NCBI GenBank assembly: GCA_014360645.1
Contig: JACIXD010000011.1
Span: 62,001 to 126,000, forward strand
Source of the DNA: Actinomycetota bacterium
GTDB lineage: Bacteria; Actinomycetota; Geothermincolia; Geothermincolales; RBG-13-55-18
DNA: 64,000 nucleotides
Direction: 5' to 3'
Part shown: positions 6,892 through 62,902 of the stretch, piece by piece
Position numbering within the stretch: position 1 is the first letter of the stretch
Layout of the letters: the number at the start of each line of letters is the position of its first letter
Notes under the pieces: generated by a model
Told to the model about the DNA's origin: nothing
What the model saw: only the letters and a program-made list of their open reading frames with translations
The model's database searches: none
Program-made: the position numbers and the translations under genes

Positions 6892-7006
6892 GACGCCGCA
6901 CGTGCGCCGGCATCTTCTGTCTTGCGGCGCGAGGGACGGAGAGAAATGGACGAAGGAAAGTAGCGTGAGACGCCGCATGTGCGCCTGCGTCTTCTGTCTT
7001 GCGGCG
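6892..7006. repeat. pair of 38-bp imperfect direct repeats with palindromic ends
   Basis: The copies at 6892-6929 and 6969-7006 differ at only three of 38 positions and are separated by 39 bp. Each unit begins GACGCCGCA and ends TTGCGGCG, so CGCCGCA and TGCGGCG can form a 7-bp stem. The pair lies in the long hom/HPS divergent region (6390-7076), just upstream of the HPS promoter. That region otherwise holds the hairpin at 6550 and no convincing gene. Confidence 0.75.
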
Positions 7007-27256: not shown

Positions 27257-27458
27257 GTGCCGCGCCGCGGAGATCCGGCGCTCCTTCTGCCCGGAACGCT
27301 GTTCGCGGTCGGTGGCGTCCGCGTGCCCGGCCTGCGTATCGCGGCGGCAACTCCTCTGTGCCGCGCCGCGGAGATCCGGCGCTCCTTCTGCCCGGAACGC
27401 TGTTCGCGGTCGGTGGCGTCCGCGTGCCCGGCCTGCGTATCGCGGCGGCAACTCCTCT
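27257..27458. repeat. perfect 101-bp tandem duplication
   Basis: The units 27257-27357 and 27358-27458 appear identical by eye over 101 bp and abut without a spacer. They lie between the chelatase stop and the sensor-kinase gene. Each unit contains short palindromes such as GCGCCGCGG and CGCGGTCGG. No ribosome site or codon structure suggests a gene. Confidence 0.85.
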
Positions 27459-30986: not shown

Positions 30987-31120
30987 TGACCGGAACTCTT
31001 CATGTTCTCCGAGGCGGCATCCGTCCCGGAGCCGGACAGGTGCTGCTCATCAAGCCTGTTTGTATTCGCTCATCCCGGCCGCCGGAGCCACGGCGTAGCG
31101 GTGGCGGTTTCGCGTGAGCC

Positions 31121-31228
31121 TGGATCTACGGACCAAAACCATCGACCGCGCCGTCCCTGGTGGGGGGCACATCCCTCGTCTCCTTCCCCCATCCGCTGGA
31201 TCTACGGACCTAAAACATCGACCGCGCC
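31121..31228. repeat. pair of 32-bp direct repeats
   Basis: The copies at 31121-31152 and 31197-31228 start TGGATCTACGGACC, end ATCGACCGCGCC and differ at two positions. They are 76 bp apart start to start, between the 51-aa gene and the convergent PH-domain gene. The stretch 30987-31296 has no gene I can support. Confidence 0.75.
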
Positions 31229-31296
31229 GCAGACCTCAACCCCGGCCCGCCCTTTAAGCCGCTCGCGACGCCGCGGCCCGGGACAGGCATGGCCCT

Positions 31297-41133: not shown

Positions 41134-41243
41134 TCCGTCTTGTTCCGCTCCATGCCCGCCTCATTCAACTCCTCGCCGCACCGGGCCGATAAATGAAACG
41201 CGAAAAAAGCAGGCGGGGCCGCGCGGCCCGGGGAGTGGATGAC

Positions 41244-42716
41244 ATGGCCGAGAAGGGGCACGTGCTCCTGGCAGACGACAACAAGCTCGTGGTCAAGGTG
41301 ACCGGGTCCATCCTGGAGGAGGCGGGGTATAGGGTGGATGTGGCATGGGACGGCCTGGAGGCCGCCATCAAGGCCTTTTCCCTCATGCCCGACCTCCTCA
41401 TCCTGGACGTGGAGATGCCCAAGATAAAGGGCTACCAGGTATGCCGGCTCCTCAAGGAGGACCCCCTCACCTCCTGGCTGCCCATCATCATGCTCACGGG
41501 ACGCGAACACCAGAGCGACATGTTCTGGGGGATCAAGGCGGGCGCCGACGCCTATATCACCAAGGGGTTCAAGCCCGAACACCTCCTGGAGAAGATGGAT
41601 GAGCTCTTCTCGAGAGCGGACGAATACCGGGAGCAGAAGGAGCTCTCACGCAAGCGCCGCAGGAAGGACATCAGCGAGGGGTACGTGATCGACAAGATAA
41701 CCGACCTCCTGGACCGCAAGCTCTTCGAGACCACCATCCTCAACGACATCGCCTCCCTGTCCGGGTCCCTCCAGGACTTCACGGAGACCCTGGTCTCGGT
41801 GTTCGAGAACCTCGACCGGATCTTCGCCTACTTCGCCGGCGGGCTCTTCCTGGTCGAGGAGAACGAGCTCTACCTCTATGCAAACAAGCCCGTATCACGC
41901 GGGGTCCTGGAGGAGACGGGAGAGGAGACGCTGCGCGTGGCGACGGGATATGCCTGGAGCGGGGAGAACGCACCCCTGGTGGAGCGCATCTTCATCAACG
42001 AGGAGATGCTCTCCGAGCCGCCCCCCGACAAGCAGCCCGAGCTCGCCTACGTGCACCTCCCCCTCACCTCGCACAACAAGGTGATGGGGGTTTTCCTGGT
42101 GGCTGGGCCTTCCACCCCCGCCTTCCGCCGCGACGCCCCCTCCATCCTCAACCTGGTCCGGAACGAGCTCACCATGATCGTTGACAACGCCCGCCTCTAC
42201 GAGGAGGCCAAGCGCATGGCCATCACCGACGGACTGACGAGGATATATAACCACCGCTTCTTCCAGGAGCTCTTCGAAAAGGAGTACAAGCGCGCCGTGC
42301 GCTACAACACCACCTTTTCCCTCATCATGATGGACATAGACTTCTTCAAACGCATCAACGACACCCACGGCCACCTCTACGGCGACGAGATCCTGCGCGA
42401 GATGGCCGGCCTGGTGAAGGGCTGCCTGCGGACCATGGACATCCTGGCGCGCTACGGAGGCGAGGAGTTCGCCATCCTCCTGCCGGAGACCGACCTCGAG
42501 GACGCGGCGCTCACCGCGGAGCGCATCCGCATGGCGGTGGAGAACCACGACTTCCCCCTCTCCCGGGGCAAGAGGGTGACGGTGACCGTGAGCCAGGGCG
42601 TGACCTCGTTCCCCGCCCCCGACGTCAGGCAGCGCTCCGACATCGTGGCCAAGGCGGATGCCGCCCTCTACGAGGCCAAGGAGGCCGGCCGCAACTGCGT
42701 GCGCTGCCGCGCCTGA
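41244..42716 (+). CDS. REC - GAF - GGDEF diguanylate cyclase
   Basis: A 490-aa response regulator. REC (about 5-125) has LLADDNKLVVKVTGS and the phosphoacceptor in LLILDVEMPKIKGYQV. A GAF-like domain (about 165-325) follows. The GGDEF domain (about 330-490) has ITDGLTRIYNHRFFQE, FFKRINDTHGHLYGDE and the active signature LARYGGEEFAILLPETD. It should make c-di-GMP when phosphorylated. ATG 41244 has a GGGGAG site eight bases upstream; an in-frame ATG at 41193 adds a basic 17-residue stretch. The kinase partner is not adjacent. Confidence 0.92.
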   Translation: MAEKGHVLLADDNKLVVKVTGSILEEAGYRVDVAWDGLEAAIKAFSLMPDLLILDVEMPKIKGYQVCRLLKEDPLTSWLPIIMLTGREHQSDMFWGIKAGADAYITKGFKPEHLLEKMDELFSRADEYREQKELSRKRRRKDISEGYVIDKITDLLDRKLFETTILNDIASLSGSLQDFTETLVSVFENLDRIFAYFAGGLFLVEENELYLYANKPVSRGVLEETGEETLRVATGYAWSGENAPLVERIFINEEMLSEPPPDKQPELAYVHLPLTSHNKVMGVFLVAGPSTPAFRRDAPSILNLVRNELTMIVDNARLYEEAKRMAITDGLTRIYNHRFFQELFEKEYKRAVRYNTTFSLIMMDIDFFKRINDTHGHLYGDEILREMAGLVKGCLRTMDILARYGGEEFAILLPETDLEDAALTAERIRMAVENHDFPLSRGKRVTVTVSQGVTSFPAPDVRQRSDIVAKADAALYEAKEAGRNCVRCRA

Positions 42717-42855: not shown

Positions 42856-43064
42856 CCCTTCTCCCGCGCATTCATGGGGTGACGTAAGGGCGGGGGCCGG
42901 CGGTATGCCGCACCTTTTCTCCCGTGCATGCAAGGGGGCGACGATGTCCGCCCCTCAAGCTCCCACAGGTATTCCTTTCTCCCGTGCATGCCTGGAGGTG
43001 ACGGGCGGGCTTCACGCCCGTGCGGCGCCTCGAGCCTTTCTCCCGTGCATGCATGCGTGCAGCC
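42856..43064 (+). CRISPR. CRISPR-like array of four ~30-bp repeats
   Basis: Four repeats follow CCTTTCTCCCGTGCATGC then GG.GGTGACG: 42856-42884, 42914-42943, 42974-43003 and 43035-43064. The core CTCCCGTGCA starts at 42861, 42919, 42979 and 43040, with periods of 58, 60 and 61 bp. CTCC and GGAG flank the centre, so the repeat can fold. The three spacers are 29-31 bp and unlike each other. The outer copies are degenerate, and no cas gene lies in the window. Confidence 0.62.
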
Positions 43065-43175
43065 GCCCGAACCCGAATACCTTCTGCCGGTTCCCGTGCG
43101 GCCCCTCCGGGGCGCGATATCCGCCGCGTGTGGTCGGGCGACGAACCGTACCCCCGTTCTGTCACCGGCCCTTCT

Positions 43176-43181
43176 TATAAT
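43176..43181 (+). promoter_or_regulatory. TATAAT -10 element before the 49-aa gene
   Basis: A perfect TATAAT 20 bases before the ATG at 43202, with weak -35 bases. It also marks the right limit of the repeat region at 42717-43175. Confidence 0.45.
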
Positions 43182-43201
43182 CGGGCCGTGAGGTGATGGA
43201 G

Positions 43202-43351
43202 ATGGATTATCAGGCAACGTGGAAGCAGCTCGAGGAGGCCTACATACGGTGCGCGGACGCGGAGGAGTTCCTCCTCGAGATAATGCGCATATGGGCCGCG
43301 CACGGCCTCCTGGAGGGAGAGTGGTCGTGCTCGCTGCGCGAGGCGGTCTGA
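43202..43351 (+). CDS. 49-aa small hypothetical protein
   Basis: ATG 43202 lies eight bases after GAGG and 20 bases after a TATAAT. The product starts MDYQATWKQLEEAYIRCADA and continues with EEFLLEIMRIWAAHGLL, forming an acidic amphipathic helix, with two cysteines. I do not recognise a family. Codon use is normal for the genome, with third-position G and C dominating. It is convergent with the desaturase-like gene. Confidence 0.55.
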   Translation: MDYQATWKQLEEAYIRCADAEEFLLEIMRIWAAHGLLEGEWSCSLREAV

Positions 43352-44890: not shown

Positions 44891-45165
44891 ATCGCACCTC
44901 CTCTCCCGCCGGGCAAGCCAGCCCGGCACCCCTCGTTCCACCTGCTCCGCGATACCCCTGCTCCCGAGTCCCCGCAGGGCCCGGAACCCCCTCGCCCCAC
45001 CCGGGACCTGCACAGAAAAGTAGAAACCCAAGATACCTTTGGGACCGTCAAGCGCGGGGCTCGACGTTTTCTACTCGGCATCCTGGGTTCCTACCTACGT
45101 TCCGGACGCGCAAGCCTGAAAAGCGCTTCCCTTCAGGTTTTCCCCCGAGTCCAGCCGGAACGGTT
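44891..45165 (-). ncRNA. long, possibly structured 5' leader of the desaturase-like gene
   Basis: The predicted promoter at 45169-45196 gives a leader of about 270 nt. It contains CGTTCCGG/CCGGAACG (45098-45105 with 45155-45162) enclosing CCTGAA/TTCAGG (45115-45120 with 45132-45137), and a separate CCCAA/TTGGG stem near 45027-45043. This is a nested arrangement like a regulatory leader. I do not recognise a known riboswitch. Confidence 0.4.
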
Positions 45166-45168
45166 TAA

Positions 45169-45196
45169 ATAATATCATCGTGCGCGGAGGTGTCAA
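45169..45196 (-). promoter_or_regulatory. TTGACA-16-TATTAT promoter
   Basis: On the minus strand TTGACA (45191-45196) and TATTAT (45169-45174) are separated by 16 bp, pointing toward the desaturase-like gene. It is one of the best promoter matches in the window. Confidence 0.68.
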
Positions 45197-45348
45197 TAGG
45201 GTGGGGGGTAAAATCTTCGCGGGTTTCGTTAACTTTCCATATAATACCATAACAGCACCCGCACGGGCGCCGGCTCGGGTACTCCTCTACCACGCCGCGA
45301 TCTCTGCTATTATGTATTAACCGTAGGAGCGCGAGCGAGGAGGTAAGT

Positions 45349-49209: not shown

Positions 49210-49548
49210 AGCTATCAGCCTCCTTTACTCTGCGGGGGCGGGCGGCGGGTGGAAATCCCGCGCCCGGACCGGAAACCGCTTGATGCCCTGCAGGGCCTCC
49301 CGGGGACTGCGAGCTCTTCCCGGAGACCCCCGTATCCGATTCAGCCCTGTCTTGCTGCCACCGCCATTATATAACAGCACGACGGAAGAAACGAAAACGC
49401 CCTGACCGGCCTCGCGACCCGCAAAACAGGCATGGTTCGGCAGGCGTCTTGCGGGTTGAAGCGGTTTGAGGGGCCCGAAATACCGGCGGGATGGGGAGGA
49501 TATGGCGCAGAGCTCTTTAGTAAGACGATCGAAGCGGCTCGAGTGGCC

Positions 49549-49638
49549 CGATCATCCCCACAGGCGGGGAGGACGTTGCGTGCAATAAAAACACGAGAAG
49601 GATTATTACCGATCATCCCCACAGGCAGGTCGAAAACC
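49549..49638. CRISPR. two-repeat type I-E-like CRISPR remnant
   Basis: CGATCATCCCCACAGGC begins at 49549 and again at 49610, exactly 61 bp apart, which is the type I-E period (29-bp repeat plus 32-bp spacer). The first copy is complete: on the minus strand it reads GTCCTCCCCGCCTG then TGGGGATGATCG, very close to known I-E repeats. The second keeps only 17 bp before diverging, as terminal repeats often do. The spacer (49578-49609) is AT-rich, unlike its surroundings. No cas genes are nearby. A GACCCGCAA/TTGCGGGTT stem lies upstream near 49417-49458. Confidence 0.6.
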
Positions 49639-61274: not shown

Positions 61275-61862
61275 ATGTTCAACGCCAAACGCTTCAGTCA
61301 TCTTCTGCTTCTATTGGTTCTCTTGATATCCACGCTGCTCATATTAATGTCGCTTGTATTTGGATGCAGCACAGAGCAAACAAAGACCTCTGTTGACACT
61401 TCTTTTGAGGAGAAGATTCCTTCTGCACCTAAACCTGAGCCTGCGCCTGCGCCTGCACCAGCACCTGCGCCTGCGCCTGCACCAGCGCCTGCACCAGCGC
61501 CTGCACCTGCGCCTGCACCTGCGCCTGCACCTGCGCCTGCACCTGCTCCACAACCTAGTGGCATACCTTGGAACGAAGCCAAGTACCACATCGGAGAGAG
61601 AACCACCGTATATGGCACTGTCGCAAGTACTTACTGGGCTACAGGCAGCAAGGGACAGCCCACCTTTATCAACCTAGGTAATGCATATCCTAATACTAAT
61701 CGGTTTACAGCCATTATCTGGGTGCAAAATAGAGGCAATTTCAGCTTCGCCCCGGAAAGATACTACAGTGGGAAAACCATTTCAGTCACTGGGTTGATAA
61801 TAGATTATGAAGGAGTCCCAGAAATTGAAGTCACCTCCCCAGACCAGATTCAAGTTTGGTAA
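61275..61862 (+). CDS. lipoprotein with Pro-Ala repeat and OB-like C-domain
   Basis: A 195-aa exported protein from a lower-GC gene. Residues 1-31 are a lipoprotein signal (LLLLVLLISTLLILMSLVFG, then Cys at the lipobox). A (Pro-Ala)n linker of about 18 units lies at about 55-91, encoded by CCTGCG/CCTGCA hexamers. The C-terminal domain from about 100 (YHIGERTTVYGTVASTYWA, FTAIIWVQNRGNFSFAPERY, SVTGLIIDYEGVPEIEVTS) resembles a secreted OB-fold nucleic-acid-binding-like domain. The linker probably spans the wall. It lies between IS21 fragments. Confidence 0.72.
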   Translation: MFNAKRFSHLLLLLVLLISTLLILMSLVFGCSTEQTKTSVDTSFEEKIPSAPKPEPAPAPAPAPAPAPAPAPAPAPAPAPAPAPAPAPAPAPQPSGIPWNEAKYHIGERTTVYGTVASTYWATGSKGQPTFINLGNAYPNTNRFTAIIWVQNRGNFSFAPERYYSGKTISVTGLIIDYEGVPEIEVTSPDQIQVW

Positions 61863-62742: not shown

Positions 62743-62804
62743 AGGCGGCGCTCCCGCGCATCTCCCGCTGCCCCGCCGCCGGCGGGGCGGAGCGGGCCGC
62801 GCGC

Positions 62805-62902
62805 CGGACGGGCGGACGTAGAGATGCCGGCAAATCAAGGGAAGGGTTAAGGGTGGCTTTACCCTCGCGCGACGGACGGCCGGACGGAGAGATGCCGGCA
62901 AA
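62805..62902. repeat. pair of 30-bp direct repeats
   Basis: The copies at 62805-62834 and 62873-62902 begin CGGACGG and end GAGATGCCGGCAAA, with two mismatches, 68 bp apart. They lie in the 413-bp gap 62743-63155, which has no other gene-like content. GC content falls sharply after 62905. Confidence 0.7.

Follow-up and report, generated by a model that had tools for sequence, protein, structure and literature searches.

A four-unit CRISPR-like array among genome-wide spaced repeats in a relative of Candidatus Solincola: possible footprints of off-target spacer integration

To date, stray insertion of CRISPR spacers has been known chiefly in laboratory strains overproducing Cas1-Cas2. According to the summary given in PMC11788318, Nivala et al. 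(2018) obtained non-canonical integration into non-array DNA upon Cas1-Cas2 overexpression in E. coli, a 'spontaneous CRISPR loci generation' in which a spacer-sized fragment is inserted, a target of repeat length is duplicated, and a locus-specific repeat-spacer-repeat results. PMC7999890 describes ectopic acquisition inside an array of S. thermophilus. Orphan CRISPR arrays, such as those of P. aeruginosa PAO1 (PMC11687729), are short and have no adjacent cas genes. We found no natural genome-wide record of stray spacer insertions in the openly licensed literature, and the birth of new CRISPR loci is an open question. Mycobacterial MIRUs are another kind of intergenic, locus-specific repeat, with periods of 50 to 100 bp, in which the whole unit is repeated.

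The repeats described here share with the E. coli products the spacer-sized insert between copies of a local sequence, and with orphan arrays their shortness and the lack of neighboring cas genes. Unlike the former, as far as that summary describes them, they would be a natural record, accumulated over the whole of wild genomes, and they fall into two size classes. Unlike orphan arrays, their repeats differ at each locus and mostly enclose one to three interspaces; unlike MIRUs, only half of each period repeats.

The window, a stretch of 64,000 nucleotides, is part of contig C11. The genome, of 3.38 Mb, has Candidatus Solincola among its close relatives. The array and its two neighbors are arranged as follows:

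41193 to 42716, plus strand: response-regulator/GGDEF gene, upstream of the array, conserved in relatives
42856 to 42884, plus strand: unit 1, degenerate, CCCTTCTCCCGCGCATTCATGGGGTGACG
42885 to 42913, plus strand: interspace 1, 29 nt, without detectable relative
42914 to 42943, plus strand: unit 2, CTTTTCTCCCGTGCATGCAAGGGGGCGACG
42944 to 42973, plus strand: interspace 2, 30 nt, without detectable relative
42974 to 43003, plus strand: unit 3, CCTTTCTCCCGTGCATGCCTGGAGGTGACG
43004 to 43034, plus strand: interspace 3, 31 nt, without detectable relative
43035 to 43064, plus strand: unit 4, diverged in its 3' half, CCTTTCTCCCGTGCATGCATGCGTGCAGCC
43196 to 43351, plus strand: 51-amino-acid ORF, downstream of the array

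The initial annotation had reported four repeats at a period of 58 to 61 bp, with a conserved core and unique spacers of 29 to 31 bp, and this description is confirmed. The units measure 29 to 30 nt, and the core TTTCTCCCGTGCATGC occurs as an exact 16-mer at 42916, 42976 and 43037 and as a degenerate copy at 42858. Over 28 nt the units are 79 to 86% alike, unit 1 being the weaker one, and the interspaces do not align with each other (z = 0.6 and -1.3). A triple 13-mer cluster was seen in none of 60 Markov-shuffled windows. The exact core has no copy in the rest of the genome, and a profile built from the four units gave significant matches to those four alone. The array has the regularly spaced direct repeats of 23 to 50 nt and the non-homologous spacers of uniform length that are expected of a CRISPR, but not near-identical repeats; nor does it have the unit duplicated as a whole that is expected of a tandem minisatellite, its interspaces being unrelated. 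Two other identities were considered and rejected: a motif family spread over the genome, since CCTTYCYYSCGYGC, taken as a loose consensus, is no commoner than its reversed control, and a structured RNA, since the array and its units fold no better than shuffles, bar one unit on one strand.

The array had been called cas-less, with a search for cas operons elsewhere recommended. While cas1 is missing from the window, two loci elsewhere in the genome carry it, each adjoining a long array; in one, GTTTCAATCTCCTGAACGGAGATTTTTCTTTTTCTAC recurs at least 30 times at 73 to 79 bp, and in the other there are 51 copies of GCTTCAATTGGGCCGCGGATAATCATCCGCGGAAAC at 72 to 76 bp. Both resident arrays (on contigs C12 and C7) alternate near-identical repeats of 36 to 37 nt with spacers of 36 to 42 nt, an architecture of repeat and unique interspace that the window array shares; its own repeats, however, are shorter, far less uniform and unrelated to either resident repeat, and no cas genes matching it were found in the genome. 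A genuine spacer of the C12 array (C12_2, the second spacer, at L161) matches the host dnaN gene over 38 of 39 nt and is self-targeting or near-self. Searches for Cse1 and type I-E Cas2 gave nothing in the genome or in 39 relatives (15 of them in the family); as they missed the E. coli control too, their sensitivity is uncertain and the negatives are weak.

The suggestion of a trans-acting guide locus found no support, the three interspaces having no match in phages, plasmids or IMG/VR, where one genuine control spacer had none either; a structural RNA likewise found none, no significant fold being seen. Rfam gave no match to the array, and its CRISPR-DR models are uninformative here, staying below threshold even on the real arrays of the genome. 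Nor is a standalone functional orphan CRISPR supported, since the repeat is unrelated to the resident arrays, unique in the genome, and absent from the corresponding gap of a sister species (G001). The label of orphan array nevertheless came close to the best reading, and the CRISPR-like spacing and unique interspaces were rightly noted; not visible from the window alone was that such footprints are found throughout the genome, at two fixed periods, and that the locus is one of them. Orthologous loci with identical repeats and spacers, which had been named as evidence for another kind of repeat, do not come into play, as the sister species have no array in this gap. No evidence of a present function was seen: the first and last units are decaying, and there is no significant fold, no motif in orthologous promoters and no matching effector.

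The GGDEF gene and the 51-amino-acid ORF lie 480 nt apart here but about 145 nt apart in G001, and the sister species G002 has neither the array nor the ORF. The array therefore appears either younger than the split of the genus or lost in the other species; intergenic DNA has diverged, and no clean single-copy empty site can be demonstrated for it. The ORF is unannotated, has no Pfam match, and is conserved in 9 of 39 genomes, in the family and beyond. A promoter-like CTGTCAC..TATAAT lies 3' of the array, at about 43157 to 43187, as judged by eye across orthologues, a consensus scanner remaining silent.

The question arises as to whether other loci of this kind exist. We took a census of 1.264 Mb of the 3.38-Mb genome, counting intergenic repeats of the form A-B-A, in which part of the period only is repeated and B is unrelated. 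Genes in it were called by a simple codon-score script rather than a standard annotator. In a sample of the genome, the density of short-range direct repeats was about sevenfold higher in intergenic DNA than inside genes. Such repeats were nearly absent from G019, of another family in the same class, where events are too few for a comparison of period peaks. With the remaining periods between 30 and 130 bp averaged as the expectation, two peaks stood out in the census, at 58 to 62 bp (29 seen versus 10.9 expected, p = 4e-6) and at 70 to 77 bp (51 versus 17.5, p = 5e-11), and both recurred in G001 after masking of its real array (13 versus 5.1, p = 0.002; 36 versus 8.2, p = 7e-13); these p-values are approximate, as they assume independent Poisson periods while one locus can count at neighboring periods. 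In a block-shuffled control, the distribution of periods was flat. Hairpin strength did not differ between the two classes. A comparison of all footprints with their empty sites in G001 was unusable at most loci, where intergenic DNA has diverged. The genome also holds a dispersed 83-bp tandem repeat family (L201:14890-15080 and L209:19862-20000), whose copies are 97% identical although the two loci are far apart; the repeats of the footprints, by contrast, are locus-specific.

The class at 70 to 77 bp bears the marks of ectopic spacer integration, namely target duplication and a spacer-like insert. At 17 loci, 13 in this genome (G000) and 4 in G001, repeats of 33 to 38 nt, made of ordinary DNA specific to each locus, enclose inserts of 34 to 42 nt; these lengths correspond to those of the resident arrays. 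GC content of the inserts (0.552) differs from that of their flanks (0.656, p = 0.002), and not from that of 79 genuine spacers (0.543, p = 0.84). Two such footprints and a borderline one lie in the window:

6892 to 7006, plus strand: 38-nt repeat (92%) around 39 nt
31120 to 31229, plus strand: 34-nt repeat (94%) around 42 nt
62798 to 62902, plus strand: borderline footprint, 37-nt repeat (92%) around 31 nt, period 68 bp

Three inserts of this class could be traced to host genes. Two of them, at L294:15133 (37 of 38 nt) and at L305:19700, correspond to the beginning of dnaN, about 100 bp from the match of the genuine spacer C12_2. Two stray inserts and a real spacer thus derive from one 180-bp stretch of the genome, which ties the class to CRISPR adaptation. 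The third, at L194:4411, matches the 5' part of a 40-amino-acid rubredoxin-like gene at 95%, and is flanked by a repeat that takes in the final 28 nt of a ferritin gene and 9 nt beyond them. This end of the ferritin gene is single-copy and without insert in both G001 and G002, so that target duplication with an empty site in relatives is found at this one locus. The source DNA of the traced inserts is 1 to 6 nt off the host copy, and may therefore have come from a related strain or from an element on which such genes reside. Cas1-Cas2 inserts DNA of spacer length and duplicates a target as long as a repeat, whereas known transposases make much shorter target duplications. The best-preserved scars look like CRISPR spacers misinserted into ordinary DNA.

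The class at 58 to 62 bp, to which the window array belongs by its period, also shows fixed repeat and gap sizes genome-wide: its well-preserved members have repeats of 28 to 29 nt and gaps of 31 to 33 nt, and similar members are present in G001. AAAACGCCCTCGCGTGCGGAGGGGATGGG occurs three times at L208:14651, with periods of 60 and 61 bp, and L208:5066 has two copies of its own repeat. The richest such array seen (L206:1990-2460, contig C4) has about eight decaying 29-nt units about 60 bp apart, which end in GGGGATAAACG or GGGGATCGAC and include, at L206:2070, the palindromic repeat CTCCCC-GCGCGAA-GGGGATCGAC. The window contains a second pair with a 61-bp period:

49545 to 49637, plus strand: CCGATCATCCCCACAGGC twice, the second copy decayed past 18 nt

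For this class, no source of the inserts was traced, and their pooled GC (0.66) equals that of the flanks. No integrase with a matching ruler was found: the two cas1 genes detected adjoin the arrays with repeats of 36 to 37 nt, and the Cse1 and Cas2 searches, of uncertain sensitivity as noted above, gave nothing. The repeats have a CCC...GGG theme in common, although one would not necessarily expect this of randomly duplicated targets.

Because its architecture and period are analogous, we assign the window array to ectopic integration, and give an even chance to the reading that CRISPR spacers were integrated off target here and that the resulting footprint has since decayed. An integrase of the Cas1-Cas2 type with a target ruler of 28 to 29 bp would insert spacer-sized fragments into ordinary intergenic DNA, each insertion duplicating the local target. 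Repeated insertion at the newest repeat would then give four units, and the array would decay afterwards, most likely guiding nothing today. We infer that the units grew by such successive insertions, and that the class at 58 to 62 bp arose like that at 70 to 77 bp, via another integrase.

The main rival to ectopic integration is that the window array is the relic of a real, horizontally gained array of type I-E or IV-A-like kind (repeats of about 29 nt and spacers of about 32 nt) whose cas genes were lost, the dispersed mini-arrays being separate relics. The period of 60 to 62 bp and the repeat and gap sizes of the class fit it, since type I-E arrays have these sizes, and to the eye several repeats resemble the I-E kind; the palindrome at L206:2070 stands among eight decayed units, one with an I-E-like end, GGGGATAAACG, and the last unit of the window array has diverged. 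However, at least five loci in 1.26 Mb differ in repeat and mostly have 2 to 4 units, which relics of a single system would not be expected to show, I-E cas genes were not found in the relatives searched, and the resemblance to type I-E is one of appearance, on which the Rfam models do not inform. Moreover, hairpins in this class are not above shuffles (mean z of 0.6), whereas both real repeats exceed z = 4. On balance we regard such relics as rather unlikely. An old tandem duplication of a 60-bp unit, of minisatellite or MIRU-like kind, which decayed while its core was kept by chance, gene conversion or selection, would fit a genome with many intergenic tandem repeats, including a perfect 101-bp one in two copies at 27257 to 27458 of the window. 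It seems to us quite improbable, for the interspaces cannot be aligned although a 16-nt core is identical in three copies, and the periods gather in two sharp peaks instead of spreading widely. If the units were binding sites for a protein that regulates the 51-amino-acid gene or the GGDEF gene, this would fit a core better conserved than the interspaces and the position of the array, upstream of a small conserved gene that has a promoter of its own. The core, however, is found neither in orthologous promoters nor elsewhere in the genome, and the loose motif is no more frequent than its reversed control, which makes this scenario the least credible, with very little to be expected from it.

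Returning to ectopic integration, we consider it possible, if somewhat short of an even bet, that Candidatus Solincola genomes hold a natural fossil record of tens of stray insertions per genome, in two size classes, of which that at 58 to 62 bp, the window array included, would be due to an integrase now lost or unrecognizable, and that such scars can grow into small CRISPR-like arrays. If so, off-target integration would be among the normal forces of mutation that act on intergenic DNA, sequence alone would suffice to measure how often it happens and which targets it prefers, and one could ask which scars form arrays. Array-finding software would mistake such scars for orphan CRISPRs.

Other elements were observed nearby. 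At 45015 to 45205 of the window, on the minus strand between a phytoene-desaturase-like gene and dapA, about 150 nt of noncoding DNA are conserved across an alignment of nine genomes of the family. The element has a promoter resembling TTGACA-N17-TATTAT, a long helix in the consensus and, at its end, a hairpin followed by a T-rich tail. It has no Rfam match at E<=1 and is a candidate new structured small RNA, in which most pairs are invariant and support from covariation is weak. In another genus of the family (L022 of G006), three CCTTCYYTGCGCGCG repeats about 53 bp apart lie 5' of dapA. Finally, a degenerate tandem repeat of CCTGCG/ACCTGCGCCTGC hexamers and dodecamers occupies positions 61423 to 61546 of the window.
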